Assembly (NCBI GenBank): GCA_027449865.1
Contig: DAIDKV010000130.1
Coordinates: forward strand, 1 to 41,232
Direction of reading: 5' to 3'
DNA length: 41,232 bases
From: Planctomycetales bacterium
GTDB lineage: Bacteria > Planctomycetota > Planctomycetia > Isosphaerales > Isosphaeraceae
Below the pieces are notes generated by a model, which had not been told where the DNA came from, ran no database searches, and saw nothing but the letters and a program-made list of their open reading frames with translations. Positions 24,667 through 41,096 of the stretch are shown here, one piece after another. A program made the position numbers and the translations under genes. Position 1 is the first letter of the stretch. Each line of letters starts with the position of its first letter.

Positions 24667-25287
24667 ATGATGATGTCGCGGACTCCCGACGATCTGAGCC
24701 TGGTGGAGGCCTGCCGGTCCGGCCGGACCGAGGCCTTCGGGCTTCTCGTCCAGAGATATCAGGACCGGCTCTACCCAACGATCGCGCGAGTGGTCGGATC
24801 GGCGGGGGATCCCGAGGACATCCTCCAGGACGCGTTCGTCCGCGCGTTCGAGAAGCTCGACCAGTTCCAGGGGGAGAGCTCATTCTACACGTGGATCCAT
24901 CGGATCGCGGTGAATCTGGCCCTCTCGGGGCACCGGCGACGGCGAGTCCGGGCGGCGCCCCCGCCGGCAAACCGTCGCGAGGCGCCCCGGGGTCTGCACC
25001 CGGCCGACGAGTCGGTCGAGGCCGACCCCGCCGCTCCACTCGAGCGGGCCGAGCGGCAACGGATCGTCGCCGCGGCTCTCGACGAGCTGAGTCCCGAGCA
25101 CCGCGCCGTCGTCGTTTTGAAGGACTTCGACGGCCGAAGCTACGAGGAGATCGCCGAGACCCTGGGGATCCCAGTCGGGACGGTCAGGAGCCGATTGCAC
25201 CGGGCTCGTTGCGAACTGCGAGACCGGCTCCGCCCCCTGGTCGACGAGCCCCGCCCGGCCCAGCAAGGGGCGACCTCCGGCCCCTGA
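24667..25287 (+). CDS. ECF-type RNA polymerase sigma factor
   Basis: A 206-aa protein. Region 2 is visible in FGLLVQRYQDRLYPTIAR, GDPEDILQDAFVRAFEKLDQ and FYTWIHRIAVNLALSGHRRR; region 4 in LDELSPEHRAVVVLKDFDG, YEEIAETLGIPVGTVRSRLH and RARCELRDRL. Length and layout match ECF sigma factors that activate specialised gene sets. Three consecutive ATGs (24667, 24670, 24673) are possible starts and no strong ribosome-binding site separates them. The next gene, 78 bases away, is the likely anti-sigma factor. Confidence 0.93.
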   Translation: MMMSRTPDDLSLVEACRSGRTEAFGLLVQRYQDRLYPTIARVVGSAGDPEDILQDAFVRAFEKLDQFQGESSFYTWIHRIAVNLALSGHRRRRVRAAPPPANRREAPRGLHPADESVEADPAAPLERAERQRIVAAALDELSPEHRAVVVLKDFDGRSYEEIAETLGIPVGTVRSRLHRARCELRDRLRPLVDEPRPAQQGATSGP

Positions 25288-25365
25288 ACCACCCAGCGCA
25301 TCCGGCGGGCACGAGGCCCGAGACGATTTTCGCGGTCCAGGCCCCATTCCCCGAAGACCATCCTC

Positions 25366-26454: not shown

Positions 26455-26712
26455 GAGGTTTTGGTCGAATCGACCGAGGATGGCGAAGTGATGGAAAGGG
26501 TTACCGGACAATAACCTGGAATTTTTCCATCTTCCCTCCCGGCCCTTCCATCAGCGCTCTTCCCATCCTCTGAGCCAGACGGGGTCATGTTACGCCCACT
26601 GGTCGGCGGGTATATTGTGTATCTCATGCGTATTGGAGATCAGGGCGCCCTCGCCCCGGCCGATCGGCCGGGGACGCCCGGAGTGCCGGATCCCTGGAGG
26701 CTCGCTCGTCGG

Positions 26713-27663
26713 ATGATTGAGGTCGACCGATTGTCGAGGCGGTTCGGGTCGTTCCGGGCCGTCGACGACGTCAGCTTTGCGGTGGGTACCGGCGAGATCG
26801 TCGGCCTGCTCGGCCCGAACGGTGCGGGCAAGACCACCACGATGCGCATGCTCACCACCTACCTGACGCCGACCAGCGGCCGGGCGGTGCTGGCCGGGCA
26901 CGACGTCCTCGACGAGCCGCTGGAGGTCCGTCGCAAGCTAGGATATCTGCCGGAAAGCGTTCCGCTTTATCCTGAGATGCGGGTTCGGGAGTTCCTCCGG
27001 TTCCGGGCAAGGCTCAAGGACGTTCCGCGTTCGAGCTTGCGGCGGGCGATCGCCGAGGTCGTCACGCGGTGTCGGCTGGAGGAGGTCGAGAACCGGATCA
27101 TAGGCCAGCTCTCGCGTGGATATCGTCAGCGGGTCGGACTGGCCGGGGCGCTGCTGCACGATCCCCCGATCCTGATCCTCGACGAGCCGACCAGCGGCCT
27201 CGATCCGATCCAGATCCTGGAGGTCCGCTCACTGATCCGAGAGCTGGGCGCCCGGCACACGATACTGCTGTCGACGCATATCTTGCCGGAGGTCGAGGCC
27301 GTCTGTAATCGCGTGATCATCATCGCGAGGGGTCGAATCGCCGTGGACGGCCGGCTTGAGGACCTCCGCCGCGAGACCTCGATTGTGGTCGAGGCGAAGG
27401 GTCCGGCCGACGCCATCGCACCCGCGATTCAGACGGTTACCGGGGTCGACCGGGTCGCCGTCGAGGGGCAGGATGGTCCGTTCATCGCCCTCCGGGTGCA
27501 GGCCCGGGACGGTCGAGACCTCCGCGAGGCGATCGGCCAGAAGCTGGTCTCCAACGGCTGGCCGCTCCGTCGTCTCGACCTGAGCCGGAGCACGCTGGAA
27601 GAGCAATTCATCCAGGCTGTCAACCGCGAGGCCCTCGCCGACGCCCGACAGGAGGCCTCCTGA
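26713..27663 (+). CDS. ABC transporter ATP-binding protein (GldA-like)
   Basis: A 316-aa ATPase: Walker A GPNGAGKTT at 34-42, a Q-loop-like YLPESVPLY, the signature LSRGYRQRVGLA, Walker B LILDEPTSGLD and the switch His in LSTHILPEV. After residue 215 a C-terminal extension (SIVVEAKGPADAI...LEEQFIQAV) is typical of the CcmA/GldA group of ABC-2 exporters. The ATG at 26713 begins the conserved MIEVDRLSRRFG; an ATG at 26626 would add 29 residues without support. First gene of a four-gene unit with very short gaps. Confidence 0.92.
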   Translation: MIEVDRLSRRFGSFRAVDDVSFAVGTGEIVGLLGPNGAGKTTTMRMLTTYLTPTSGRAVLAGHDVLDEPLEVRRKLGYLPESVPLYPEMRVREFLRFRARLKDVPRSSLRRAIAEVVTRCRLEEVENRIIGQLSRGYRQRVGLAGALLHDPPILILDEPTSGLDPIQILEVRSLIRELGARHTILLSTHILPEVEAVCNRVIIIARGRIAVDGRLEDLRRETSIVVEAKGPADAIAPAIQTVTGVDRVAVEGQDGPFIALRVQARDGRDLREAIGQKLVSNGWPLRRLDLSRSTLEEQFIQAVNREALADARQEAS

Positions 27664-27665
27664 CC

Positions 27666-28439
27666 ATGCGGCACGTCAACGAGCTGCTCCGACGCGAGCT
27701 GGCGGCCTACTTTCTTTCGCCGATGGCCTACCTGGTTCTGCTCGCGTTCCAGGTTCTGGCTTTCCTCAACTTCTGGGTGCTGGTCGACACGCTCAGCGAC
27801 CCGGTTCGGACTCACGGCGAGTATTCCAGCCTGAACGACCCGATGTCGACTTACATATCGTCGAGCCCGTCGTTCTGGTTGGGAATGCTGATGGCCATCC
27901 CGGTCCTGACGATGCGGCTGCTCGCCGAAGAGCGACGGTCCGGGACGATCGAAACGCTGCTGACCCTCCCCGTCACGGAGGCCCAGGTCGTTCTGGCAAA
28001 GTGGTTGGCGGGCGTGGTGATGTATCTGGTGCTGCTGGTACCGTTCGCACTGTACTTGCCGTTCCTGTATTATCAGGCCCATTTTCCGTTCGATGTCGGG
28101 CCGCTGATCGCACTGGCGGTCGGCCTCACCACGCTCGGAATGATGCTCGTGGCGATCGGGATTCTTTGCAGTGCCTCGACAAGGAACCAGCTTGTGGCGG
28201 CCATCTGGACGTTCGCGGTGCTGTTCTTCCTGGTCGGGATGATCCCGCTGCTGGGGCAGTTCGCGGCGCGGACGCGGACCGGATGGGCCGAGGCGGTTCA
28301 GTATACCTCGATCTTGCACCAGGTCGCGGCTTTCGGCCTCGGCCGGCTCGATCTGCGGCACCTGGCGCTGCACCTATCGGCCTGCGTCTTGCTTTTGAGC
28401 CTGACAGTCCGGATCGTCTCGGCACGGGGGAATCGTTGA
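27666..28439 (+). CDS. ABC-2 type permease (GldF-like)
   Basis: A 257-aa integral membrane protein with about six helices. The N-terminal RRELAAYFLSPMAYLVLLAF and the ERRSGTIETLLTLPVTEAQVVLAKW block are characteristic of ABC-2/GldF permeases. It begins two bases after the ATPase stop, so it forms the transport core with that ATPase. The substrate is unknown. In Bacteroidetes the related Gld set is linked to gliding, but planctomycete copies have no proven role. Confidence 0.9.
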   Translation: MRHVNELLRRELAAYFLSPMAYLVLLAFQVLAFLNFWVLVDTLSDPVRTHGEYSSLNDPMSTYISSSPSFWLGMLMAIPVLTMRLLAEERRSGTIETLLTLPVTEAQVVLAKWLAGVVMYLVLLVPFALYLPFLYYQAHFPFDVGPLIALAVGLTTLGMMLVAIGILCSASTRNQLVAAIWTFAVLFFLVGMIPLLGQFAARTRTGWAEAVQYTSILHQVAAFGLGRLDLRHLALHLSACVLLLSLTVRIVSARGNR

Positions 28440-28441
28440 CG

Positions 28442-30289
28442 ATGAGCGAGCGAGTGCTCTCCTTCCTGTCGAGGGGCGACGTGCTGACGGCCGGCTCGGC
28501 GCTGGCGGCGTTCCTGGTACTGACCTGGATTCTCCGGGGCGCGGCGCCGGGGCGATCGCTGGCGGGCGAGCCCGAGGGCGACGCCCCGCTCGCGAGCCGG
28601 CGTGACCGGATGGTCTTCGGTGTGGCGCTCGGACTGGTCCTGATCCTGATCGGCGCCGGAGTCGCGGCGACGCAGGGAGTCCCCTGGGCACTGCCGATCT
28701 TCGGCATGGGCTTCCTGATGGTGGTCTCTCTCACCCGGATGAACCGCCGGTATCGCCACGAAAGCCCGACGCTCCGCCGAACGATCGACGTCTCTGACGC
28801 CTTCCTGGATATCTCGCTGCTGGCGGGCGTCCTGATTGTGCTGAACGTGCTGGCGTTCCGCTACGGTGGGACGCCCCTGGACCTGACCCGAGAGGGAACC
28901 TACTCGCTGACCCCCGAGAGCATCGCCCGCGTCCGGGCGCTGGACCGGCCGGTGACGTTCACGATCCTCTCGGGCGCCAGCCCGATTGCCGAGCAGCACA
29001 AGGCCCGGGTCGTCCAGCTTCTCGACGCCTACAAGTCGATCAACCCGGAGAAGATCCGGATTGCCTCCCTCAATCCTTACGAGGATCTCTCGCGGATCGA
29101 GGAACTGGCCCGCCGAGTTCCCGAACTTGGGCTGCTTCGCGGCGGCGGCGTTCTGATCGAGTACGGTGAAGACAGGGAAACAGCACCGGTCATCGTCCGG
29201 ACCCAGGAGATGTTTGACGAGCCCTCGCGCGGCCAGCGCCGGGTTGCCGATTACTTCGAGTCGAACTTCAAGGGTGAAGACGCGATCACCTCGGCGCTGG
29301 ACCGCCTTCGGCTCGGCAAGGGGGTGAAGGTGGCGTTCACCGTCGGCCACGGCGAACCGAAGCCCGACGACATGTCGGGGAACGGCCTGGGCACCTGGCG
29401 AACGCGGCTGACACGTGTGGGCTACGAGGTCAGCGAGATCCGGCTCGACCAGCCGGCGGTCGCTGGCGAGGAGGAGCCGGCGGTGGTGATCGTGGCGGGA
29501 CCTCGCGACCCGTTCCGGCCCGAGGAAGTCACGCGGCTTCGCGAGCGAGTGGACCGCGGTAAGCCGGTCTTGCTGCTCCTCGGCAACGAGCACCCGAGCG
29601 GGCTCGATTCGCTGCTGAAGGCGTACAACGTGGAGATCGGCCATGGAATCGTGATCGACCCGCGGTCGAACTACGGGGGGATTCTCGAGAACGTGCTGGT
29701 CCCGTCGCAGAGCGGGCCCGGTCACCCGATTTCCTCGGCGATGTCCCCTGATCGGTCGGTACTGGTTCCGCACGCGGCACCGATCCGAATGATCGGACCC
29801 TCGGGGAGACCCGGCCGGCCCTCCGAGCCGATTGACCGGACGCTTGTCCCAACGCCGATCCTTCAGGCCGGGCGAAACGCCTGGGCCGAGTCGGATCTGA
29901 AAAATCCACGACCTACCTACGATCAGGACGCCGACGGCCCTCGCGGGCCGCTTCTGGGCGTTGCGATCGCGAAGCGGCCCGAGCCTGAGTCCCGGCCCGG
30001 CTTGCCAATCGAGGAGGAGCCCCGGCTCGTTCTGTTCTCCTGCCCGTACATGGCGCTGGACTCACTGCAGGACCGCTTCCCAGCCAACCTCGACCTGTTA
30101 ATGAACGCCGCGAGCTGGCTCCGGGGCGGCAAGGGAGACACCCTGGGCCTCTCGCCCCGGACCCACGTCGCATTGACGCTGATGATCGACCCCCAGCTCC
30201 GATCGCGGCTCATCCTGGTGCCGACGCTCACCGCGGCGATGGTCATCATCGCGGTCGGACTGATCGTCTACACTTCCCGGCGAGAATGA
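28442..30289 (+). CDS. ABC auxiliary protein (GldG-like, ABC_transp_aux)
   Basis: A 615-aa protein with three N-terminal transmembrane helices (within about residues 15-145), a large extracytoplasmic domain, and a C-terminal helix (LTAAMVIIAVGLIVY). The domain opens with the typical LDLTREGTYSLTPESIARVR and RPVTFTIL, the signature of the GldG/ABC_transp_aux family. It starts two bases after the permease stop and overlaps the next gene by four bases. Probably an accessory subunit of the exporter above. The longer frame from 28001 overlaps the permease gene and is not used. Confidence 0.88.
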   Translation: MSERVLSFLSRGDVLTAGSALAAFLVLTWILRGAAPGRSLAGEPEGDAPLASRRDRMVFGVALGLVLILIGAGVAATQGVPWALPIFGMGFLMVVSLTRMNRRYRHESPTLRRTIDVSDAFLDISLLAGVLIVLNVLAFRYGGTPLDLTREGTYSLTPESIARVRALDRPVTFTILSGASPIAEQHKARVVQLLDAYKSINPEKIRIASLNPYEDLSRIEELARRVPELGLLRGGGVLIEYGEDRETAPVIVRTQEMFDEPSRGQRRVADYFESNFKGEDAITSALDRLRLGKGVKVAFTVGHGEPKPDDMSGNGLGTWRTRLTRVGYEVSEIRLDQPAVAGEEEPAVVIVAGPRDPFRPEEVTRLRERVDRGKPVLLLLGNEHPSGLDSLLKAYNVEIGHGIVIDPRSNYGGILENVLVPSQSGPGHPISSAMSPDRSVLVPHAAPIRMIGPSGRPGRPSEPIDRTLVPTPILQAGRNAWAESDLKNPRPTYDQDADGPRGPLLGVAIAKRPEPESRPGLPIEEEPRLVLFSCPYMALDSLQDRFPANLDLLMNAASWLRGGKGDTLGLSPRTHVALTLMIDPQLRSRLILVPTLTAAMVIIAVGLIVYTSRRE

Positions 30290-32640
30290 TGAAGACCTAC
30301 CGATACCGATCCGTGATGTTCTTCCTGCTGATGGGCCTGCTCCTCCTGATGTGGGCCCTGGAGCTGGGCGGCGTCCGGACCCGCTCCGATCGCGAGCGAC
30401 AGGCCGTCCGCGTGCTTCCCAACCTGATCGACATCCCCGAGGTCGACATCCATCGGGTCGAGATCGACCGAGGCGGCGATCACCTGGCCTTCGAGCGACG
30501 GGGCGACGGCCCTGGCCAGTGGCAGATGGTCGAGCCGAAGGATGTCGCCGCCGAACCCGTCCGACTCGACGCCCTGGTCCGCAACCTGAAGGAACTGCGC
30601 AAGGATCCCGACGCAGGGACCATCGCCGTTGACTCGAAGAAGCAGGGATTCGATCCGCCCGCGGCCACCATCCGCCTTTTCAGCAAATTGAGTTCGCCCG
30701 GACAGCCGATCGCGACACTCGAACTGGGCCGAGCCTCCGACATCGGCTCGTCGCGTCGACTCCGATACGCCCGGCCATTGGGCGCGACTGGGACCGATCT
30801 GATCGATGCTCGGCTCGTCTCGGCCCTGGATGAGCCGGCGATCGAATGGCGGCAGCCGAATCTGATGCCGGCGCCGACGTTCCAGGTGAAGGCGGTCCGG
30901 ATTGTCCGGCGCGACCAGCCGGGCGGCCGGTCCCGGCCGATCACGGCCGAGCGCGACGCCTCGGGCCGGTGGACCGTCGAACTACCGACGCAGACAACCG
31001 TCGATGCCCCCAGGCACGGCCCTCAAGAGGTCCCCGCCGACGGTCCAAAGGTCGAGAATTTGCTTGCGGCGATGGCATCGCTTCGCGTTGCCGACCCGCC
31101 CAGGGGCTACGCCGACGATAACGCGAAGGACCTCGCCGCCTTCGGACTCGGCGACGACCGCGCGGCCATTCGCGTCGAGGTCGAGCCTGCCCGGGGCGCC
31201 CCGATGGCCGTCGAGATCGGCAAGACGGTCCCTGGTCAGCCTGACCGCGTCTACGCCCGGCAAGTAGGGCAGGACGACGTCGTGATTGTCGACAGCCGAG
31301 CCCTGACCGACATCCCGGCCGACGTCAACGCGATCCGAAGCCACCAGGTGACCGAGATCATCCCGCGCGACGTGGTCTCGTTCGAGGTCGAAACCCACCC
31401 AGACGTCTTCCGCGTCGAGCGCGCCGGCCGCGCCTGGAAACTGACCTCGCCGAAGGCCGAGCCCGCCGACCCGCAGTCCATCGCCGAGTTCCTGGGCCAC
31501 CTTCAGGATCTTCAGACCAGCGAGTTTCTCGACCCATCGAAGGTTGTTGACCCGAAGCTCGATCCTCCCGTGATGCGGATCAAGGTCCGGCAGGCTTCCA
31601 CCCGCCCCAACGCCGAGCCGTTCCAGGCTCTGAACCTCCGCCTGGGCCGGCACGACATCGCCCGCAAGGCCGTCTATGCCCAGCTCGAAGGCGACTCGGT
31701 CACCCTGGTTCTCCCAGATAAGGTGATCGAGATCCTGCCGAAGAACCCGCTGGCTTTCCGCGACAAGTCGGTGGCGGATGTAAAGGCGGCGGAGGTCCAT
31801 CGGCTGGTGATCCATCGCGGCTCCCAGGTCGACGAGTTGATCCCCGAAACTAAAGGCAACCCGAACGCCTGGCGGATGGTCCGCCCGGTCGAGGCCCAGG
31901 GCGACGTCCCGACAATCACACGAACACTCGCCCTGCTCGGCTCGCTCCGCGCGAAGGAGTTCACCGGCGTGGGCATCGACCAGCCGGGCGCGTCGAAGGC
32001 CGCGGGGCTCGACAACCCGCCGATGGAGATCGAGTGGGAATCCGACGCCCCACACCGGCTCCGAATCGGGACGGTCGCCCCAAGGACCACAACCTTCTAC
32101 GCGGTGACCGACGCCGAGCCGATGATCTTCACCCTCCCGGCCGACGTCGTGCGCGAACTCGACGCCGAGTACCACAGCCATCGCATTGAGACGTTTCCAC
32201 CGAAACGGGCCCTCCGGATCGTCCTGCACTTCTTCGGCCGAACTGTCACCCTCAGGTACCGGCCCCCGCAAAAACTCGGCCAGGTGGAGTGGATGCCCGA
32301 GGCCGACTCCGACGCTTCCGGAATGGATCTCACCCGGATCCCCGCCCTGGTCCAGACGATGGCTGCCCTCGAAACCCGTCGATTCATCCAGTACGAGGGC
32401 GCCTATCCGATCGACACCGGACTCTCACGACCGAGGCTCACAATCGAGGTTTTTGTTTCGGGCGAAGAATCCCCTCGTGTTCTTCGGATCGGCTCCGAGG
32501 CCGGCGACTCCAACGTCTGCGCCGCCAACGGAACCGGACTAACCGGCCCGGCGTTCCTCCTGCCGAATGCCTCGTGGAACGAGCTGATCCGGATCGGCGA
32601 GCGCCTCCCAACCCTCCCGGAAGACGTCTTCGCGCACTGA
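30286..32640 (+). CDS. DUF4340 protein, partner of the GldG-like exporter
   Basis: A 784-aa protein with one N-terminal transmembrane helix (about 10-27) and a long extracytoplasmic region made of repeated DUF4340-like beta-rich units, each resembling 'V..FEVE......ERAGRAWKLTSPKAEPADPQSI'. It is normally coded next to GldF/GldG-like genes, as here, with an ATGATGA overlap; ATG 30289 is an alternative start. Function unknown; probably an envelope component of the same complex. Confidence 0.85.
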   Translation: MMKTYRYRSVMFFLLMGLLLLMWALELGGVRTRSDRERQAVRVLPNLIDIPEVDIHRVEIDRGGDHLAFERRGDGPGQWQMVEPKDVAAEPVRLDALVRNLKELRKDPDAGTIAVDSKKQGFDPPAATIRLFSKLSSPGQPIATLELGRASDIGSSRRLRYARPLGATGTDLIDARLVSALDEPAIEWRQPNLMPAPTFQVKAVRIVRRDQPGGRSRPITAERDASGRWTVELPTQTTVDAPRHGPQEVPADGPKVENLLAAMASLRVADPPRGYADDNAKDLAAFGLGDDRAAIRVEVEPARGAPMAVEIGKTVPGQPDRVYARQVGQDDVVIVDSRALTDIPADVNAIRSHQVTEIIPRDVVSFEVETHPDVFRVERAGRAWKLTSPKAEPADPQSIAEFLGHLQDLQTSEFLDPSKVVDPKLDPPVMRIKVRQASTRPNAEPFQALNLRLGRHDIARKAVYAQLEGDSVTLVLPDKVIEILPKNPLAFRDKSVADVKAAEVHRLVIHRGSQVDELIPETKGNPNAWRMVRPVEAQGDVPTITRTLALLGSLRAKEFTGVGIDQPGASKAAGLDNPPMEIEWESDAPHRLRIGTVAPRTTTFYAVTDAEPMIFTLPADVVRELDAEYHSHRIETFPPKRALRIVLHFFGRTVTLRYRPPQKLGQVEWMPEADSDASGMDLTRIPALVQTMAALETRRFIQYEGAYPIDTGLSRPRLTIEVFVSGEESPRVLRIGSEAGDSNVCAANGTGLTGPAFLLPNASWNELIRIGERLPTLPEDVFAH

Positions 32641-32790: not shown

Positions 32791-33975
32791 ATGACGGTCG
32801 CCGGATCGACTGCGCGCACGAGGCGCCTCGGGCGTCGGCTCCAGCCAGCAGGAACGCCCGCGACGGAATCACCGCCGAGGCTCAGCCGACGCAAGCGGAT
32901 CGCCTTCGCAATCGTCGCGAACATGGTCCTGCTACCGGCCTGGTTCCTTGTCGCGGAGGTTGGATTCCGGGTCTTCTGGAAGCCCCGATACTGGATTCAC
33001 ACAAGCCGCCTCAGGGTTGCCTCCGGGCAGACGGAAGCCGGGAAGAAGTGGTGGCCCGAGACGCTCTACCGCGTGAACGGCTCGGAATTCGAGACCGAGT
33101 TCCGCACCGACGCCCGCGGCTACCGTGCCCGGCCAACACCCGTGCCCCCAGCCTCGGCGCATCCGTACCGAATCGCGATGGTCGGCGACTCGTTCACCGA
33201 GGCCATGCAGGTTCCCTATGAGTCCTCCTTCTGCGCTCGGCTGGAGACGCTCCTGAACTCGCCTTGCCCATCGCGGCCAAGAGTCTGTCTCAATTTCGGT
33301 GTCTCGGCGACCGGGCTATTCGACTACTGGCACCGGATCGTCCACGACGTACTGCCGAACGATCCGCCCGAGGCGCTCATCCTCTGCCTCTACCCCGGGA
33401 ACGACTTCCAGCCAACGCTTCCGGCCGATGCCTTCGACGCCGAGGGCCACCCGCTTCGCGACTACTTTCGTCCCGCCGACACGATCCATCACCTGATCGC
33501 CTGGATCAACCTCCACTCGAAGTTCGGCTGCTTCGCCCAGCGAGCCCTGTTAAGTTATGACGCGGCCTCGAAGCGTCCCGACCCCCGGCTGAACAACTGG
33601 TGGGGCGATCCAGAACGAGCCGCACGCCTCGATACCGATCCCCAGGTCGCCCGCTATCGGGCCCTGTTCCAGGCGATTGTCGATGAGTGCCGCAAGTCAG
33701 GTACCCGCCTGGGGATCGTCGTGGTCGGCCCGGTTGCAAACTACGCAGCGAAGGACGGCAAAAGTCCGATCGCCACGATCCTCGGGCACTGGGAGATCGA
33801 CGTCCCCGTAATCGATGTGGCGATTGTCGCCCGCGCTCGGCCACAATGGGCATCGGTCGTCTTCCCGTTCGACGGCCACCTGAACGACTCGGGGCACCAG
33901 CTTGTGGCCAACGAGGCCATCGGCCCGCTTCGGGCCCTGCTCGACGAGACCGCAACCGCCAATCTTCGCCCCTGA
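32791..33975 (+). CDS. Membrane-anchored SGNH hydrolase-type acyltransferase
   Basis: A 394-aa protein with an Arg-rich cytoplasmic N-terminus, one transmembrane helix (about 36-57) and an extracytoplasmic SGNH domain. The nucleophile motif GDSFTE puts Ser at 134. The C-terminal catalytic block FDGHLNDSGH puts Asp at 361 and His at 363 (or 369). It resembles the AlgJ/AlgX/PatB-type group that moves acyl groups onto exported polysaccharide. It heads the acyl-carrier/FkbH/MBOAT cluster and is probably one of its final transferases. GGGGAG six to seven bases before the ATG supports the start. Confidence 0.82.
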   Translation: MTVAGSTARTRRLGRRLQPAGTPATESPPRLSRRKRIAFAIVANMVLLPAWFLVAEVGFRVFWKPRYWIHTSRLRVASGQTEAGKKWWPETLYRVNGSEFETEFRTDARGYRARPTPVPPASAHPYRIAMVGDSFTEAMQVPYESSFCARLETLLNSPCPSRPRVCLNFGVSATGLFDYWHRIVHDVLPNDPPEALILCLYPGNDFQPTLPADAFDAEGHPLRDYFRPADTIHHLIAWINLHSKFGCFAQRALLSYDAASKRPDPRLNNWWGDPERAARLDTDPQVARYRALFQAIVDECRKSGTRLGIVVVGPVANYAAKDGKSPIATILGHWEIDVPVIDVAIVARARPQWASVVFPFDGHLNDSGHQLVANEAIGPLRALLDETATANLRP

Positions 33976-34068
33976 TGCCGCCTGGCCGGCGTCTGGCCGA
34001 TCCTGGTATGCTGCCAGACGTTCGGATTCTCAACCCGTCCCAGAGCCGCCAGACCAGGACCTCGCCCC

Positions 34069-34395
34069 ATGTCCAGCCGGGAGACCCTCCGCCAGACCCT
34101 TATCGACCTGCTTGAGCAGGAGATGGGCGAATCCTATCCCTCCCTCACCGACGACCAGGATCTCCGCGAATCCCTCAAGCTCGACTCCGTCGACGTCGTC
34201 GGCCTCGTCATGCGGATCGAGCGCGAGTACCACGTCCGGCTCGCCCCCGAGGAACTCGCCACCATCAAGACCGTCGGCGATTTGCTCGACTTGATGCAGC
34301 CGAAAATCGCCGCCAGACCCGCATCCATCCCCCCGTCCTCTATCGGCGAAGACGTCCCCCACCATGTTGCCCGAGATCAACAAGAGGAGGCTTAA
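34069..34395 (+). CDS. Acyl carrier protein (first of two)
   Basis: A 108-aa protein whose first 80 residues form a phosphopantetheine carrier domain: LKLDSVDVVGLVMRIEREY with the attachment Ser at 40, then PEELATIKTVGDLLDLM. A 25-residue disordered tail follows, longer than in fatty-acid ACP. It lies between the SGNH gene and the second carrier gene. In this cluster it is expected to carry an acyl thioester in the cytoplasm for an MBOAT. No clear Shine-Dalgarno sequence is seen. Confidence 0.87.
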   Translation: MSSRETLRQTLIDLLEQEMGESYPSLTDDQDLRESLKLDSVDVVGLVMRIEREYHVRLAPEELATIKTVGDLLDLMQPKIAARPASIPPSSIGEDVPHHVARDQQEEA

Positions 34396-34403
34396 AAAAG
34401 AAA

Positions 34404-34431
34404 TTGACAGCCAATAAATACTGCATATAGC
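34404..34431 (+). promoter_or_regulatory. Candidate sigma70 promoter upstream of the second ACP gene
   Basis: TTGACA at 34404-34409 and TATAGC at 34426-34431 are separated by 16 bases in an A+T-rich context. Confidence 0.45.
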
Positions 34432-34512
34432 CCTGGGTTTGGTGAAAACGGGGAAGTAGGGAGGTCTGGTTTGGACCATGTTGAGAAGCTTCATCCGTCT
34501 TCACGCCTTGTG

Positions 34513-34542
34513 TTGACAGTGCACCTGGATTTTCCCTATTTT
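34513..34542 (+). promoter_or_regulatory. Second candidate sigma70 promoter upstream of the second ACP gene
   Basis: TTGACA at 34513-34518 and TATTTT at 34537-34542 are separated by 18 bases, about 195 bases before the ACP start. Confidence 0.4.
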
Positions 34543-34737
34543 TGACTTGTCCACGATATCGCTCGGGAATCCGTCTCGCCTTGAGTTGGCGACTCCGACG
34601 ATTTGCGGGTGACCTGATCCCATCAATGGGCTTGGCGGAGGCCGCACCCTCGGCGTCCCTGGCTGGGCTCGCTTCTGTCCTGAGAGATCGTTCCGGCACA
34701 ATCCGTCCCAGCGCGAACACCCTGAGAAGAGACACCG

Positions 34738-34980
34738 ATGCCTGATACACTGGCGCGCCTGAATGAGGTCTTTCAGCAGGTCTTCGATGATGAAGAGTTG
34801 GAAATCACTCCCGAAACGTCGGCGAAAGACGTCGATGGGTGGGATTCTCTGATGCACGTGACGCTGATCGTGAACGCCGAGAAGGCGTTTGGCGTCAAGT
34901 TTTCCAGCTCCGAGGTCGCTGCGCTGAAGAACGTGGGAGACCTGGTGCATCTGATCGATTCTCGCAAGCACGCGGGATGA
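34738..34980 (+). CDS. Acyl carrier protein (second of two)
   Basis: An 80-aa carrier protein of standard length with the phosphopantetheine site in VDGWDSLMHV (Ser 37), followed by the helix III region VKFSSSEVAALKNVGDLVHL. The DGWDSL form is typical of carriers coded beside FkbH-type proteins and in DltC-like settings rather than of the fatty-acid ACP (usually DSLD). It sits 112 bases before the FkbH-like gene, its probable loading partner. Confidence 0.9.
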   Translation: MPDTLARLNEVFQQVFDDEELEITPETSAKDVDGWDSLMHVTLIVNAEKAFGVKFSSSEVAALKNVGDLVHLIDSRKHAG

Positions 34981-35092
34981 TCGAGACGTTGAGACGGCCC
35001 GCGACTTTTCATCTATCTCGTGAATTCGATCCATTCCCACGATCCCGGGCGGCGTGATCGGTCCCCGGTCGGATCGAGCCGGAGGCATCTGC

Positions 35093-36967
35093 ATGTCTAC
35101 AGCCACCGAGTTGTTCAAGCGGACGTCCGCCCTGCGCAAGGAGGGACGCCTCGACGTAGCGCTGGCCATGCTTCGCGAGGCGATGGCCCGAGGCGGGCTC
35201 TCCCCGGAGGAAGTGGACCGTGCCGGCCGATTCATCCGGAAGGCGCGGGGCGAGGGCGCCGGCGGCGAGCCCGGGCTTCGGGTCCACCTGCTCGGTCAGT
35301 TCACGACAAGCTGGCTGGTCCCCGCCGTGACGGCCGTCGGGTGGGGGCAGGGAATCGCCTCCGACGTCGAGGAGGGGGGATATGATCTCGTCCTGCAGGA
35401 CCTGACGCGGCTCTCGGCGTCGTCCGAGCCGCCGGGCGTGGTCGTCCTCTTCCCATGGAACAACCGGCTGCTGAACGGCTCGGCCCAGGCCGGGGACCGC
35501 GTTGCCGACGAACTCGCGTTCTGGAAACAGGCCTGGGAAATCGCCGGGCGAATGGGTGCGCGGGTGCTCCAGGTTGGGTACGACTGGATGGCCCCTGGCG
35601 CCGAGGGCTACGCCCTGGCCGCCGAGACGGGCGGAACCATCGACCTGATCCGCTCCGTCAACACCGCGATCCGGCAGAATCGCCCGCCCGGCTCGTATTT
35701 CCTCGACCTGGAGCTGGTCTCGGGGATGATGGGCCGCGAGGCGTTCTACGACCCCAGGCGGTACTACTGGACCAAGCAGCCGTTCAGTGAGCGGGGCGTG
35801 GTCCGGCTGGCCGAGCACGTTGTCGCCGGCATCAGGGCTCTGACCACCGGGCCGAAGAAGGTTCTGGTTCTCGACCTGGACAACACGCTCTGGGGCGGCG
35901 TCGTCGGCGAGACCGGCCCGCTCGGCGTGGCGCTCGGTGACAGCCCCGACGGCGAGGCATACCGCGCCTTTCAGAAACACGCCAAGGCCCTCTCCAAGCA
36001 GGGGATTGTCCTGGCTTTGGCCTCGAAGAACAACGAGGCTGATGGTCGGGAGCCCTTCGAGAAGAATCCCGACATGGTCCTCTCGCTCGACGACATCGCC
36101 GCCGCGGAGATCTGCTGGGAGCCGAAGGGATCGACCATCCGCCGGATCGCCCAGACCCTCAACCTCGGCCTGGATAGTTTTGTCTTCGTGGACGACAACC
36201 CGGCGGAGCGTGAGCAGGTCCGGCAGGCGATCCCCGAGGTCGCGGTGGTTGACGTACCGGTCGAGCCGGCCGAGTATGTCCGGGCGCTCCAGGCCGGGCT
36301 CTGGTTCGAGACCACCGGGCTGACCGACGCCGACCGCGAACGCGCCGCACAGTACGCCGTCGAGCGCCAGCGCCGCGAATTGCAACAGACGGCCGGCTCG
36401 ATGGAGGACTACCTTCGATCGCTGGAGATGCTCGCCGACGTCCGCGAAATCGACGAGGCCGACCTGATGCGGGTCGTCCAGCTTCTGGGAAAGACAAACC
36501 AGTTCAACCTCACAACCCGACGTCACACGCGGGAGGAAGTCGTCCGGATGCTCGATCGGCCCGGCTCGATTGGGATGACTCTCCGCGTCGAGGACCGTTT
36601 CGGCGACCACGGCCTGGTCGGCGTCCTGCTCGCCGTCCCGTCGGATGATGATCCCCAGGTCCTCCGGGTCGATACCTGGTTGATGAGTTGCCGGGTGATC
36701 GGCCGGACCGTCGAGGAGTTCACCTGTGCCGACCTGATCGACCGCGCCGAGCGGATGGGCTACCGGAAGATTCTCGGCGAATTCCTCCCGACGAAGAAGA
36801 ATGCTCTGGTCGCCGAACTTTACGACCGGATGGGCTTCCGCCGGCTGGAATCCAGCGACGGCGCCTCGGTGCTTTACGCCCTGGAGCTCGCCGGCTCGGC
36901 CAGGCCGGTGCACTACCTCACGCCGAAGGGGGCCGCGATCGGGGCCGAGTCGGTCGGCGCCGCCTGA
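35093..36967 (+). CDS. FkbH-like HAD-IIIC protein with GNAT-like C-terminus
   Basis: A 624-aa protein. An N-terminal SGNH-like/helical region is followed by a HAD domain with LDLDNTLWGG (D261, D263, T265) and the late motif FVFVDDNPAE, and by a GNAT-like C-terminal domain (RVIGRTVEEF, AERMGYRKILGEF, ELYDRMGF). FkbH enzymes take a glyceryl unit from 1,3-bisphosphoglycerate, remove phosphate and load it on a carrier protein. Here two carrier genes precede it, so it probably charges one of them. No methoxymalonyl-pathway dehydrogenases or polyketide synthases are present, which points to another use of the acyl group. GGAGG seven bases before ATG 35093 decides the start. Confidence 0.88.
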   Translation: MSTATELFKRTSALRKEGRLDVALAMLREAMARGGLSPEEVDRAGRFIRKARGEGAGGEPGLRVHLLGQFTTSWLVPAVTAVGWGQGIASDVEEGGYDLVLQDLTRLSASSEPPGVVVLFPWNNRLLNGSAQAGDRVADELAFWKQAWEIAGRMGARVLQVGYDWMAPGAEGYALAAETGGTIDLIRSVNTAIRQNRPPGSYFLDLELVSGMMGREAFYDPRRYYWTKQPFSERGVVRLAEHVVAGIRALTTGPKKVLVLDLDNTLWGGVVGETGPLGVALGDSPDGEAYRAFQKHAKALSKQGIVLALASKNNEADGREPFEKNPDMVLSLDDIAAAEICWEPKGSTIRRIAQTLNLGLDSFVFVDDNPAEREQVRQAIPEVAVVDVPVEPAEYVRALQAGLWFETTGLTDADRERAAQYAVERQRRELQQTAGSMEDYLRSLEMLADVREIDEADLMRVVQLLGKTNQFNLTTRRHTREEVVRMLDRPGSIGMTLRVEDRFGDHGLVGVLLAVPSDDDPQVLRVDTWLMSCRVIGRTVEEFTCADLIDRAERMGYRKILGEFLPTKKNALVAELYDRMGFRRLESSDGASVLYALELAGSARPVHYLTPKGAAIGAESVGAA

Positions 36968-37117
36968 TCAGACTCTTCGCCGACCGCTGGCGACGTGATC
37001 ACGCCGGGCCGGACCCATCGGGCATAAACTGGATCGGTTCCCCCCGGCCGGGGGGTGTCAGCGCCGCGGGCCTGGGGATCGGGCCGCGGGCGAACGCCAA
37101 AGCGAGGCCCGCCGAGG

Positions 37118-38296
37118 ATGCCATTCCCCGACCTCTTCAACGTGCAATTCTGGTGGATCGTCGCCCTCGCGATGATTGTGCTGGTCCCGCTCCGGCATCC
37201 CGTCCTGAGACGATGGGCCTTCGCCGCGATCAACCTGCTGATGATCGTGTTGATGCTCAAGTCGGGCGTGGTCGCGGTGCTGGCACTGGTCGCCGCCGGC
37301 TGGCTGGCCCTGCGAGTCGGCGGCGGTCGGATGGGGACGATCGCCACAACGACCGTCGGGCTCGCGGCGCTGGGGCTGTTCCTGGTCCACAAGCGGCCCG
37401 ACCTCGTCGCCTCGACCGGGGTCGAGAGGATCGAGCCGGTCCTGGGAGCGATCGGCTATTCCTACGTGGCCCTCCGCTGGATCGAGATGACTCGTGCGGT
37501 CCGGTCGGGCCGGCACCCGCTCCCCGACCCGATCTCGACGATCAATTATCTGCTGCCGTTCCACATGCTGGCCGCCGGCCCGATCCAGTCGTTCGACGAG
37601 TTCGTCGCCCAGCCGGCCGTTCCGAGGCCGCTCTCGGCCGCCGGAGCACTCCGGGCGATCGAGCGGATCGCCTCCGGGCTGTTCAAGAAATACGTGGTTG
37701 CCCAGGCGATCCAGAGGGCCTACCTGACCGACTTCCACGCTGGCGGGATGTATACCCTGCTGGAGGCCCAGTTCACCTATATCTGGCTCTACCTCGATTT
37801 CAGCGCTTACAGCGACATCGCCGTCGGGATCGGCCGGTTGATCGGCTTCGAGGCGCCCGAGAACTTCAACTGGCCGCTCCTGGCCCGGAACATGGTCATG
37901 TTCTGGGAGCGGTGGCACATCTCGCTCTCGATGTTCATCCGGCGGAACCTGTTCATCCCGACGCAACTCACGCTGACGCGATACGACGGCGGCCAACACC
38001 CGCTGATCATCGCGGCTGTGGCGTTCGTGGTGGCGTTCGTCCCGTGCGGGCTCTGGCACCGGATCGGGTGGCCCTGGGTGGCCTGGGGGCTCTACCACGC
38101 CGCCGGGCTGACCGTTTGCACGGCCTATCGGCAGTGGCTCACCCGCAAGCTGGGCCGCAAGGGCGTGCTCCGCTACATGGACGACCCGAAGATCCGCCTG
38201 GCGATGACCGTCCTGACCTTCGAATTCGCGGCCCTTGGCGTGGCACTGCCCCTCTTCCCGTACGAGGACATGTTCCCATGGATGAACTCTCATTGA
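37118..38296 (+). CDS. MBOAT family O-acyltransferase (first copy)
   Basis: A 392-aa polytopic membrane protein of the DltB/AlgI-type MBOAT family. Landmarks are INYLLPFHMLAAGPIQSFDE, YLDFSAYSDIAVGIGRLIGF, ENFNWPLLARNMVMFWERWH, and the His-containing block CGLWH (H314) ... WGLYHAAG (H327). In the family such enzymes pass an acyl group from a cytoplasmic thioester to an extracytoplasmic acceptor through a membrane tunnel. Placed 150 bases after the FkbH-like gene. Its last 19 bases overlap a small membrane-protein gene in the -1 frame. The protein itself does not end in an acyl-shuttle hexapeptide. ATG 37118 is chosen because MPFPDLFNVQFWW aligns with the start of the second copy. Confidence 0.9.
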   Translation: MPFPDLFNVQFWWIVALAMIVLVPLRHPVLRRWAFAAINLLMIVLMLKSGVVAVLALVAAGWLALRVGGGRMGTIATTTVGLAALGLFLVHKRPDLVASTGVERIEPVLGAIGYSYVALRWIEMTRAVRSGRHPLPDPISTINYLLPFHMLAAGPIQSFDEFVAQPAVPRPLSAAGALRAIERIASGLFKKYVVAQAIQRAYLTDFHAGGMYTLLEAQFTYIWLYLDFSAYSDIAVGIGRLIGFEAPENFNWPLLARNMVMFWERWHISLSMFIRRNLFIPTQLTLTRYDGGQHPLIIAAVAFVVAFVPCGLWHRIGWPWVAWGLYHAAGLTVCTAYRQWLTRKLGRKGVLRYMDDPKIRLAMTVLTFEFAALGVALPLFPYEDMFPWMNSH

Positions 38297-38427
38297 ACGA
38301 CGAGGCGCCGGACGACCCCCCGATCGGCCGAGCCGAGTTCCTGGCGCGGGCGGCGATGGCGGCGCTGATGATCGTGGCGGCCTACTACCTGGGCCATTCC
38401 GATTTCTTCTTCTACCAGGGCTTCTGA
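38278..38427 (+). CDS. DltX-like acyl-shuttle microprotein (first copy)
   Basis: A 49-aa protein starting within the 3' end of the MBOAT gene (19-base overlap, GAGG about 10 bases upstream of ATG). An acidic N-terminus, Arg residues at 18 and 24 and a single transmembrane helix (about 25-40) predict N-in/C-out topology. It ends in FFYQGF, fitting the F-x-Y-x-x-F hexapeptide of DltX whose Tyr accepts the acyl group from the MBOAT and hands it to the SGNH-type transferase; here the Tyr is residue 46. A second, otherwise divergent protein with the same last six residues follows the second MBOAT, which strongly supports a real gene. The next gene, 16 bases on, is a DltD-like SGNH protein. Confidence 0.85.
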   Translation: MDELSLNDEAPDDPPIGRAEFLARAAMAALMIVAAYYLGHSDFFFYQGF

Positions 38428-38443
38428 AGGCCGGGGGCGGGGG

Positions 38444-39553
38444 ATGGTCTACGACATCCGGCGAGGCGGGGGTATCCTGGCGGCGCTGGCCGCGGTCGGG
38501 GTGATGATGGCGGGCTACGGCGCGATCCTCCACGCGGCGCTGGACCCGTTCGCCGATCGGCTCCGCGAGCGCGACCAGTCGTTCATGGTCTCGGTCAATT
38601 ACGGGGTGGGGGCCCGCCGGATGCTGGGGATCCTCCGAGACCGGCCATCGTCGAAGCTGGGCGTCCTGCTCGGGCCGTCAGTGCTCCAGCAGGGCGTCGA
38701 CCCGGCGCTGCTCACCAAGGAGATGGACGGCGCCTACCGATGGGCCAACCTCCGCCTGCCCGCGCTGGCGGAAGACAACCGCCGGTTCGTCGAGCTGATG
38801 TACGCCAGCGGCCTGCGGCCCGACGTCCTGGTCCTGGTCGCCAACGTTGGGATTCAGATCTCTGACCTCGACACCCAGGCCGAGTCGGCCTGGTACGACC
38901 CGAGGATCCTGATCGATCATCTGGCGCACCGGAAGTTGGAGCTGGCGCGAGCCGATCTGATCGACATTACGATGATCCCCTGGCGATACGTCTTCCCCTA
39001 CCGGGGGCACGTTTTCACTGTCGTCGACCGGGCGCTCTATGCGTCCAAACTGGCCATGTTTTCCAACCGCAAGACTCCCTTTGCCGCGCTCTATCCCCCT
39101 GACCCCGACCCCTACGTCGAGCCATTCCCAGCGATCGGTCCCCGGACCGAAGTGGCCGATCAGGAAATCCTGGGGTTCATCGGCCGCAAGGGATGGTTCG
39201 ACACCTCTCGATACCGGACCGACAGCCGGAACTACCGGCAGCTCGTCGAGCTGTTCCGGACCGCGCACTCGCACGGGACGCGGACGTTTCTTGTCCTCGT
39301 CCCCGAGTCTGCGCCGTACCGCGAGCGGCTGCCCGCCAACGCCGCCGACCCAATCTTGCAGGGCTTCCCTCGAGACCTCGGCGAGGCGGCGCCGGTGGTC
39401 CTCGATTACCGAAAGCTCCTCTCCGAGACGGAGTTCGCCGACGTGAACCACCCCAACCACGACGGTCGGATCGTCGAGACGCGCCGCCTGGCCCGCGACC
39501 TCCGATCGGCGCTGGGCCTCGATCCGGCCGCCTCGAAAGAGGCTGGTCGCTGA
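38444..39553 (+). CDS. DltD-like membrane-anchored SGNH acyltransferase
   Basis: A 369-aa protein with one N-terminal transmembrane helix (about 9-31) and an extracytoplasmic alpha/beta domain. The candidate nucleophile is Ser79 in LLGPSVLQQGV, a GxS variant comparable with the GSSE of DltD rather than the classical GDS. The C-terminal catalytic pair is Asp333 and His336 in FADVNHPNHDG. The gene directly follows the shuttle microprotein, the gene order expected for the enzyme that takes the acyl group from the shuttle Tyr and moves it to the polymer. Family placement rests on these motifs and context and is less certain than for the first SGNH protein. Confidence 0.72.
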   Translation: MVYDIRRGGGILAALAAVGVMMAGYGAILHAALDPFADRLRERDQSFMVSVNYGVGARRMLGILRDRPSSKLGVLLGPSVLQQGVDPALLTKEMDGAYRWANLRLPALAEDNRRFVELMYASGLRPDVLVLVANVGIQISDLDTQAESAWYDPRILIDHLAHRKLELARADLIDITMIPWRYVFPYRGHVFTVVDRALYASKLAMFSNRKTPFAALYPPDPDPYVEPFPAIGPRTEVADQEILGFIGRKGWFDTSRYRTDSRNYRQLVELFRTAHSHGTRTFLVLVPESAPYRERLPANAADPILQGFPRDLGEAAPVVLDYRKLLSETEFADVNHPNHDGRIVETRRLARDLRSALGLDPAASKEAGR

Positions 39554-39570
39554 CCGGTTGACCGACCAGC
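39542..39570 (+). terminator. Weak hairpin at the end of the DltD-like gene
   Basis: GCTGGTCG (39542-39549) pairs with CGACCAGC (39563-39570) across the stop codon. There is no T-tract, so termination is uncertain. Confidence 0.25.
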
Positions 39571-39583
39571 GACAGTATTAGCC

Positions 39584-39610
39584 TTGCCGGATCGCAACCT
39601 ATCTTATAAA
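39584..39610 (+). promoter_or_regulatory. Possible promoter for the second MBOAT gene
   Basis: TTGCCG at 39584-39589 and TATAAA at 39605-39610 are separated by 15 bases, shorter than ideal. The position 162 bases before the TTG start is reasonable. Confidence 0.3.
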
Positions 39611-39771
39611 GTCGAAACGACTCGCAGGGATTCGCGTGTCGTTGCCTTCCGGAACGGATGCCCGGCGCCGGTTCCCCATTGCCGTCGAGTCGCTGCGGGC
39701 CCGCCCCGATCCCGGGGTTGCCCGCTAACGTTCTTCGATCCTTTGCACGGCACCCGGGGAGATTCGTCGCC

Positions 39772-40974
39772 TTGTCCAACCCCATCGACCTCTACGCGAT
39801 GCGCTTCTGGCTATTCGTCGGGGCGGGCATTGCGATCCTCAATCCGATCGTCGCACCTCGCACCAGGCGTTGGGCGTTCGCGGCCCTGAACCTCGGGTTC
39901 GTCGCGGTTTTCCTCGGCACGAGCGAGCGATTCGCGGCCGTGGTCGCCGGCCTGCTGGCGATCCGTGCAACCCTCGGGATGCTGCGTCCCGGTCGCTCTG
40001 GCGCCGCTTCTGTGGCTGTGGTCCTGGGTGCCGCGACCGCCGGGCTGTTCCTCGTCCACAAGCGACCCGACCTGCTGGCCAGCCGGATGCCGGGCGCGGA
40101 CAGCCTCGAAGCCATCCTGGTGACGATCGGCTTCTCGTACATCGCCCTGCGGCTCCATGAGCTGACGCGGGCCATTCGCGAGGGCCGCCATCAGCCGCCC
40201 GATCTCGCTTCGATGGTCAACTACTTGCTCCCGTTCCACATGCTGGCCGCCGGGCCAATCCAGTCGTTCGACGAGTTCGTCGACCAGCCGGCCGTCCCGC
40301 CCCCGCTCGATGTCGACGCCTCGCTCAACGCCCTCGGACGGATCTCCTCAGGGCTCTTCAAGAAGTACGTCCTGGCACGGCTGGTCCAGGAGCTTTTCCT
40401 CACCGACTACCGTTCCACCGGCTGGTACGTCCTCGTCGAGGCACAGCTCACCTTCCTCTGGCTCTACCTCGACTTCAGCGCCTACAGCGACGTGGCCGTC
40501 GGCGTCGGACGACTCATGGGCGTCGCCACCCCTGAGAACTTCGATCGACCGCTCCTTGCCCGCAACATCATCGAGTTCTGGGAGCGGTGGCATATCTCGC
40601 TCTCGATGTTCATCCGGCGGAACGTTTTCATCCCGCTTCAGCTCACCCTCATGCGACGCACCGGCGGCTCTCGCCCCTTGACCGTTGCGGCCCTCGCCTT
40701 CACCGCCTCGTTCCTCCTCTGCGGGCTCTGGCATCAGGTCGGCTGGCGATGGCTGGTCTGGGGCGGTTTCCACGCCGCCGGGCTCATCGCCTGCAACCTC
40801 TACCGACATCGGCTCAACAAACGGCTCGGACGCAAGGGCGTGAACCGGTACATGGAGAACCCCTGGATCCGCCTCGCGGCGGTCTTCCTGACGTTCGAGT
40901 TCAACGCGGCAGCTGTGTTCCTTGTCACTTACCCCTTTGAGGTGCCGAGATGGATCTCCGGGCACGGCTACTGA
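39772..40974 (+). CDS. MBOAT family O-acyltransferase (second copy)
   Basis: A 400-aa paralogue of the first MBOAT, sharing long blocks such as VNYLLPFHMLAAGPIQSFDE, LWLYLDFSAYSDVAVGVGRL and ISLSMFIRRN, and the His block CGLWH (H321) ... WGGFHAAG (H334). The TTG at 39772 with GGGGAG about 10 bases upstream gives LSNPIDLYAMRFWLF, matching the N-terminus of the first copy; the frame is open to ATG 39658, but the added Pro/Arg-rich stretch looks non-coding. It overlaps the following microprotein gene by 25 bases, the same arrangement as in the first copy. Probably works with that microprotein and an SGNH transferase coded nearby or beyond the window. Confidence 0.87.
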   Translation: MSNPIDLYAMRFWLFVGAGIAILNPIVAPRTRRWAFAALNLGFVAVFLGTSERFAAVVAGLLAIRATLGMLRPGRSGAASVAVVLGAATAGLFLVHKRPDLLASRMPGADSLEAILVTIGFSYIALRLHELTRAIREGRHQPPDLASMVNYLLPFHMLAAGPIQSFDEFVDQPAVPPPLDVDASLNALGRISSGLFKKYVLARLVQELFLTDYRSTGWYVLVEAQLTFLWLYLDFSAYSDVAVGVGRLMGVATPENFDRPLLARNIIEFWERWHISLSMFIRRNVFIPLQLTLMRRTGGSRPLTVAALAFTASFLLCGLWHQVGWRWLVWGGFHAAGLIACNLYRHRLNKRLGRKGVNRYMENPWIRLAAVFLTFEFNAAAVFLVTYPFEVPRWISGHGY

Positions 40975-41096
40975 CACGCAACGACCCAATGCGGGCCTGG
41001 CAACGGGCGGCGAGCGGCCTCTGGATCGGCCTGAAGCCGATCGCGGTGCTGTACCTCGGCCAGGCCGGCGCGAAGTTCTTCTATCAGGGGTTCTAG
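40950..41096 (+). CDS. DltX-like acyl-shuttle microprotein (second copy)
   Basis: A 48-aa protein starting inside the second MBOAT gene, with GAGGTG five to six bases before the ATG. A basic N-terminus (four Arg in the first 15 residues), one transmembrane helix (about 23-37) and the C-terminal hexapeptide FFYQGF (Tyr 45) give the same layout as the first copy, although the rest of the sequence has diverged. Conservation of only the end and topology is what the shuttle model predicts. Stop TAG at 41094-41096. Confidence 0.85.
   Translation: MDLRARLLTRNDPMRAWQRAASGLWIGLKPIAVLYLGQAGAKFFYQGF

Follow-up and report, generated by a model that had tools for sequence, protein, structure and literature searches.

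The DNA analyzed here, hereafter the window, is a stretch of 41,232 nucleotides that makes up the entire contig DAIDKV010000130.1 of the Planctomycetales bacterium assembly GCA_027449865.1. The host is a soil planctomycete. Between positions 32791 and 41096 lies a cluster of nine genes, all on the + strand, and every member of the set named in the initial annotation is present: an SGNH protein, two acyl carrier proteins (ACPs), an FkbH, two MBOATs, two microproteins ending in FxYxxF and a DltD-like SGNH protein. The GDSL/SGNH-type SGNH1 (32791..33975), which at 28.8 bits falls under the PF13472 cut-off of 32.9, is followed by two stand-alone carriers, ACP1 (34069..34395) and ACP2 (34738..34980), both above the cut-off of PF00550 (E 9.7e-12 and 3.1e-8, respectively), and by a three-part FkbH loader (35093..36967; frame open from a GTG at 35054). 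The two DltB-like MBOAT acyltransferases, MBOAT1 (37118..38296; ORF open from a GTG at 37055) and MBOAT2 (39658..40974; its true start may be the TTG at 39772), are each overlapped at their end by a membrane microprotein, of 49 aa with one hydrophobic segment in the first case (microprotein 1, 38278..38427) and of 48 aa in the second (microprotein 2, 40950..41096). SGNH2, a putative DltD-like transferase with an N-terminal helix, lies between these units at 38444..39553. The locus has two MBOAT/microprotein units, whereas there is a single FkbH loader. The contig ends 136 bp past microprotein 2, and in the sister species L051 an SGNH gene follows the counterpart of the MBOAT2/microprotein 2 unit; thus an SGNH gene has probably been lost here to the contig end.

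Both microproteins end in FFYQGF (38407..38424 and 41076..41093), a hexapeptide of the acyl-shuttle type. Among the 687 open frames of the window (stop-terminated, 30 or more codons), only two end in FxYxxF, and both stand directly after an MBOAT. Relative to the sister species, the two genes are under purifying selection, with dN/dS of about 0.28 for microprotein 1 and about 0.26 for microprotein 2. The acyl-Tyr shuttle has been described for DltX and PatA (PMC12148441). The DltX model does not match the microproteins, and a profile comparison with DltX is weak (probability 17%), with the motif aligned; what the microproteins and DltX have in common is therefore only the motif, the size and the membrane segment. 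There are also fused forms, in which the MBOAT itself ends in FVYQGF (locus L099) or FLYQGF (Sinorhizobium meliloti), each together with FkbH and ACP.

Both MBOATs exceed the PF03062 cut-off. Against the DltB model TIGR04091 they score 157 bits (MBOAT1) and 172 bits (MBOAT2), and do not reach its cut-off of 375. When the profile of the MBOAT clade is compared with the PDB, DltB structures are the sole matches (E 9e-52), and the clade histidines, spaced 47 residues apart and invariant in 21 MBOATs, align to H289 and H336 of DltB (6BUG). In MBOAT1 these residues are His267 and His314. In phylogenetic trees the MBOATs form three separate groups, with the clade apart from the fused type. As these trees are unrooted and the groups separate, we have dropped a placement that put the clade with DltB. 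Nor do the data establish that the L099 fusion arose independently (p-AU 0.054). In a tethered model of the L067 MBOAT and its microprotein, with the stops read as residues, the MBOAT is folded and the microprotein mostly below pLDDT 50.

SGNH2 matches no family HMM, and a sequence search of the PDB found nothing for it. Its model has the SGNH fold (pLDDT 83.7). The sequence alignment shows a triad of Ser79, Asp333 and His336, with S79 and H336 invariant and D333 at least 90% conserved. The top 11 Foldseek matches of the model are all DltD (best E 1.6e-4), with a loose superposition (TM 0.43, rmsd 16.5). In VIA-align most residues are aligned with DltD (231–242), and small SGNH hydrolases reach an equal Z, so DltD is not alone in matching the model. 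SGNH1 recurs only in a genus sister and is an accessory protein outside the conserved core, possibly an esterase or a second transferase.

FkbH-type enzymes are normally loaders of glyceric acid. The FkbH of the cluster, with stand-alone ACPs adjacent, scores 313.6 bits against TIGR01686 (cut-off 146.65). Its HAD motif reads DLDNTLW, and the cysteine of SCR is invariant; D274, D276, D380, D381 and C546 are invariant in the alignment, as they are in PKS-type FkbH. Its profile matches 3SLR (BF1531) with an E of 1.1e-85. ACP2 is 48–65% identical to the ACPs that adjoin FkbH-MBOAT-microprotein genes at other loci and, judged by sequence, is orthologous to the ACP of the operon there. ACP1 is retained in genus sisters and, like SGNH1, is outside the conserved core, a correction to the set of nine first proposed.

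The Dlt machinery is used by Gram-positive bacteria to attach D-alanine to wall polymers, and the combination of DltB-, DltD- and DltX-like parts with stand-alone ACPs could be taken for a true Dlt system adding D-alanine. However, an HMM search finds no adenylation enzyme of the DltA type at the locus or in the core of its relatives, where FkbH stands instead; adenylation domains are present elsewhere in the host genome. Every Dlt equivalog cut-off is missed, including that of DltC, for which the ACPs score 18.4 and 14.8 bits (cut-off 68), and planctomycetes are not known to have teichoic acids. We therefore regard D-alanylation as extremely improbable.

The fate of the proposal had been tied in advance to the conservation of gene order and of the hexapeptide, and both are conserved: in all 25 MBOAT units of the clade that were examined, the adjoining microprotein has FxYQ(G/A)F as its very last residues, and the order ACP, FkbH, MBOAT, microprotein, SGNH recurs across phyla. 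The recurrent operon, which includes a methyltransferase between ACP and FkbH, is found in Planctomycetota, Acidobacteriota, Myxococcota and Pseudomonadota, while in Chloroflexota these parts are arranged differently. The initial annotation, in framing the system as one of planctomycetes, was too narrow: the system is scattered over the host phylum and at least four others, and S. meliloti has its fused-motif version. Within Planctomycetota it is rare (4 of 392 sampled genomes). In the window's family, Isosphaeraceae, the long FkbH is found in 8 of 45 genomes and the MBOAT clade in 7 of 45, nested and in the same 4 of 21 genera, with a chance probability, not tree-corrected, of 1.8e-7 by genome and 1.7e-4 by genus. 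The expected co-occurrence of FkbH and MBOAT thus holds genome-wide within the family, and extends to two genomes (G019 and G023) in which the genes occur together though unlinked.

These patterns bear on whether FkbH and ACP belong to a separate pathway, with the MBOATs carrying out polymer O-acetylation from acetyl-CoA in the manner of PatA or AlgI. Some MBOAT-SGNH units do lack a nearby FkbH (L052, L053 and L062), and the known non-Dlt MBOAT-SGNH pairs run on acyl-CoA (PMC12148441). Nevertheless, the nested co-occurrence, unlinked cases included, the conservation of the operon across phyla, and an MBOAT clade that is apart from the fused type and whose sole PDB profile match is the carrier-using DltB all argue against such a separation, and we consider it improbable.

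The reading that we favor, and hold to be rather likely, is a Dlt-like, carrier-dependent acylation. FkbH would load a glyceryl group from 1,3-bisphosphoglycerate onto ACP2, at its phosphopantetheine arm, and possibly onto ACP1 as well, a step modelled on known FkbH/ACP pairs. The DltB-like MBOAT would then receive the glyceryl group as a cytoplasmic thioester and transfer it to the Tyr in FFYQGF, the extracytoplasmic C-terminus of the microprotein. From there the DltD-like SGNH2 would take it onto Ser79 and link it as an ester to a hydroxyl group on a polymer that belongs to the envelope or is exported. The genes with their conserved catalytic residues, the nearest folds, the motif, the operon order and the co-occurrence are what the analysis shows, and they support the proposed system with FkbH in place of DltA; the glyceryl group, the acyl-Tyr, the topology and the acceptor we infer. 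Because FkbH, normally a loader of glyceric acid, replaces DltA, the surface polymer is probably decorated with glycerate esters.

The identity of the acyl group is where the same Tyr-shuttle machine could be read differently, with FkbH loading, for example, a lactyl or other 2-hydroxyacyl group from a different phosphorylated donor. The glyceryl specificity of this FkbH is an analogy with known FkbH/ACP pairs, and the operon of most relatives has a methyltransferase and that of some an epimerase-like VOC protein, which makes O-methylation or epimerisation of the carrier-bound acyl group probable in those organisms. For the cluster in the window, a methyltransferase sought across the whole genome gave generic domain matches only. 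On the other hand, FkbH with ACP yields glyceryl-ACP in the described pairs (PMC7489565, PMC3679948), and the part of PMC7099621 drawn on here places dimethylglyceric acid (DMGA) on the flagellar glycans of Campylobacter jejuni, with fkbH-domain and epimerase-annotated genes in an island. A group other than glyceryl is therefore unlikely, in our estimate.

FkbH/ACP pairs are best known from the polyketide tetronates and methoxymalonate (PMC7489565, PMC3679948), and no polymer gene adjoins the cluster within the window. Both points would fit a small-molecule or lipid cluster, in which the MBOAT passes the group of glyceryl-ACP to a secreted metabolite or lipid and no polymer is involved. However, the conserved core has no gene identified as a ketosynthase or PKS, the DltD-like SGNH with its N-terminal helix is a fixed part of it, and in L066 the operon is followed by a Wzy-type ligase, with a glycosyltransferase near that of L077. 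We give this explanation little credence, and return to carrier-dependent polymer acylation.

Taken across its hosts, the system may represent a distinct, widely scattered pathway of surface-polymer glyceroylation. FkbH and ACP, often joined by an O-methyltransferase and a VOC epimerase, would form an acyl-editing module; the acyl groups would pass from it to a DltB-like MBOAT, then to a Tyr shuttle, either a microprotein or fused, and finally to a DltD-like transferase. We see the chances of this as evenly balanced. We found no literature that connects FkbH to MBOAT-based acylation of polymers or to the acylation of exopolysaccharides. If the reading is correct, the Tyr-shuttle machine can export acyl groups after their assembly and editing on a carrier protein, the Dlt export machine would serve as an adaptor for acyl groups on carriers in general, and the fused-motif branch would not be confined to acyl-CoA donors. 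The genes would then also be candidates for the enzymes that make glycerate esters of surface polysaccharides. Among cultured bacteria, Paucibacter sp. Y2R2-4 (L065) carries the microprotein version, and S. meliloti 2011 and Rm41 carry the fused one, with an intact fkbH frame.

Among known systems, the Dlt pathway is similar in its carrier protein, its MBOAT with both catalytic histidines, its separate microprotein with C-terminal FxYxxF and, putatively, its SGNH transferase of the DltD type. It differs in that FkbH here takes the place of the adenylating DltA, the MBOATs (157–172 bits) stay below the DltB cut-off of 375, and the microproteins match no DltX model and have their own signature, FxYQ(G/A)F; relatives have additional methyltransferase and VOC genes, and the hosts are of Gram-negative type. 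With the FkbH/ACP modules of tetronate and methoxymalonate pathways the cluster shares an FkbH domain over the cut-off, a stand-alone ACP and the catalytic Asp and Cys, but its FkbH is of the full-length, three-part kind, as seen in the BF1531 match, and putatively coupled to MBOAT/SGNH export in place of a PKS. In C. jejuni, a methylated glyceric acid is carried on a surface glycan, and the fkbH-domain gene is a pseudogene in a strain without DMGA, while no MBOAT/microprotein/SGNH unit is seen in the part of PMC7099621 drawn on here. The PatA/PatB-type systems, with their acyl-Tyr shuttle fused to the MBOAT, have in common with the cluster an MBOAT, an SGNH protein and a C-terminal Tyr hexapeptide. 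Non-Dlt MBOAT-SGNH acylation pathways have been stated to be without a carrier protein and without a DltX-like microprotein (PMC12148441, a 2025 JBC paper). The present clade is not Dlt and yet has the two together, and in S. meliloti and L099 the fused motif occurs with FkbH and ACP.

The nine genes of the initial annotation (SGNH1, ACP1, ACP2, FkbH, MBOAT1, microprotein 1, SGNH2, MBOAT2 and microprotein 2; 32791–41096, forward strand) were all found where it had placed them, in a window that is the complete contig C130 (41,232 bp) of its genome. In family scans, FkbH scored far over the cut-off, both MBOATs passed the Pfam cut-off with sub-threshold DltB scores, the two ACPs were recognised, and SGNH1 came out as GDSL-like, below the Pfam cut-off; SGNH2 and the two microproteins had no family match. 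Microprotein 1 (38278–38427) overlaps the end of MBOAT1, and microprotein 2 (40950–41096) that of MBOAT2. They are the only two of the window's 687 stop-terminated open frames of at least 30 codons to end in FxYxxF, and against sister species synonymous change exceeds non-synonymous change in both (dN/dS about 0.28 and 0.26, respectively). Directly up to SGNH1, 24199–32640 encodes an ECF sigma factor, a zinc-finger protein, an ABC ATPase, an ABC-2 permease, a GldG-like protein and a DUF4340 protein; a sister species in the genus (L032) keeps the order GldG-like, DUF4340, SGNH1-ACP1-ACP2-FkbH.

Conservation of the terminal hexapeptide and of the gene order had been set as a test of the proposed system, and both are borne out. 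A scan with a three-MBOAT alignment, in which each species was represented by a single genome, yielded a well-separated clade of window-type MBOATs (L051–L069), and at all 19 loci the MBOAT is directly followed by a frame whose last six residues are FxYQ(G/A)F; with four units of other genomes (L140, L151, L167, L169) and the window's two, the count is 25 of 25. Neighbour clustering gives a core order of ACP, SAM methyltransferase, FkbH, MBOAT, microprotein and SGNH, which recurs across phyla: in Planctomycetota (Planctomycetales, Phycisphaeraceae, Schlesneria), Myxococcota and the cultured Paucibacter sp. Y2R2-4, with a rearranged form in an acidobacterium. Five loci also encode a VOC protein, which scores weakly as a methylmalonyl-CoA epimerase. 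SGNH1 and ACP1 fall outside this core, being retained in close relatives only. Neither methyltransferase nor VOC genes lie beside the window cluster, and no specific methyltransferase homologue was found elsewhere in its genome. Near the Schlesneria operon lies an acyltransferase-3 protein with internal ankyrin repeats (L067 13423–15066).

The co-occurrence of FkbH and MBOAT, which the initial annotation had asked to be checked, takes the form of nesting within the window's family. Of its 45 genomes, 8 have a full-length match to FkbH; the MBOAT clade occurs in 7, all among those 8, and the eighth genome is 68% complete. By genus, the same 4 of 21 carry both. Chance would give such nesting with a probability of 1.8e-7 when genomes are counted and 1.7e-4 when genera are counted, relatedness being ignored. 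Co-occurrence exceeds mere physical linkage, because in two genomes (G019 and G023) the FkbH-ACP pair is on other contigs than the MBOAT-microprotein-SGNH units. In Planctomycetota as a whole, few genomes have the clade (4 of 392).

The only PDB matches of the clade MBOAT profile are to DltB (E 9e-52), whose H289 and H336 align with the two invariant clade histidines; these have a spacing of 47 in MBOAT1 and MBOAT2. Ser79 and His336 are invariant across the SGNH family alignment, and Asp333 is conserved in 90% or more of its sequences. For the SGNH2 model (pLDDT 83.7), the eleven top Foldseek matches are all DltD, with loose superposition; by VIA-align the longest alignments are again with DltD, at Z no higher than for small SGNH hydrolases. 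FkbH has a structural counterpart in the PDB, BF1531 (3SLR), as a profile match; its HAD aspartates are retained, as is an SCR cysteine also present in PKS-type FkbH proteins. The microproteins have one hydrophobic segment, and profile comparison with DltX revealed no clear similarity beyond the motif. In a model of an MBOAT tethered to its microprotein (L067), the MBOAT folded, whereas pLDDT for most of the microprotein stayed under 50.

More distant MBOATs served as a control set for motif placement. The motif is fused at the C-terminus in 44, and for the nine that lack the fusion a separate short frame carries one, eight of these nine forming the DltB group; in trees, the clade, DltB and the fused type are three separate groups. 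An anaerolineal bacterium (L077) has the parts in a different order, with FkbH, microprotein, MBOAT, ACP, methyltransferase and VOC all present, and in an alphaproteobacterium (L099) FkbH, ACP and methyltransferase accompany an MBOAT bearing a fused FVYQGF. Sinorhizobium meliloti pSymB, in nearly all strains listed, encodes VOC, an MBOAT with FLYQGF at its end, a probably SGNH-like protein that bears a TonB-receptor annotation, ACP and FkbH. In strain 1021 the deposited sequence splits the fkbH frame (L156 9206–11268), which is open in 2011 and Rm41. Microproteins ending FIYQNF and FIYRGF follow DltB-like MBOATs at L070 (202–3130, with ACP and methyltransferase, lacking FkbH) and after 10092 in L073, respectively. 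A fused motif also goes with a carrier in a Nannocystis MAG (L086 7526–11989), where the MBOAT (FVYQQF) is followed by an AMP-binding ligase and ACP. From L070 and L086, therefore, the loader varies.

In the window's genome, a fused-type MBOAT ending IAYMRF (contig C192 8614–9786, L148; L041 8314–9798) has an in-frame TGA, and is a broken gene or an assembly error. On contig C162 of that genome (L046 4881–10534), an MBOAT-like protein without the Tyr motif has an AMP-binding ligase and a pair of GDSL proteins as neighbours; this may be a separate acylation locus. In a Niveispirillum plasmid (L155 7794–12274), FkbH and ACP precede a WcbI-type putative polysaccharide acetyltransferase, possibly another way of bringing a carrier-loaded group to polysaccharide.

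In the DltX and PatA systems, the MBOAT moves the acyl group to the hexapeptide Tyr, and the SGNH serine is next (PMC12148441). Described FkbH/ACP pairs form glyceryl-ACP (PMC7489565, PMC3679948). Together, the two chemistries would esterify an extracytoplasmic polymer with glyceryl or O-methylglyceryl groups. That the acceptor is a polysaccharide is hinted at by the Wzy-type ligase after the operon in L066 and the glycosyltransferase near that of L077. Independently, Campylobacter jejuni provides a precedent for a surface glycan that bears methylated glyceric acid (PMC7099621): the group is absent from strain 12661, which lacks the epimerase-annotated cj1301, and from strain 12664, in which the fkbH-domain gene cj1302 is a pseudogene.

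The cluster is best read as a variant form of MBOAT-SGNH Tyr-shuttle system. It falls outside Dlt proper, failing on the loader and on the equivalog scores. The original proposal of a Dlt-like system with FkbH replacing DltA stands in this sense: among MBOAT-SGNH Tyr-shuttle systems the likeness to Dlt is greatest, whereas the loader here is FkbH.
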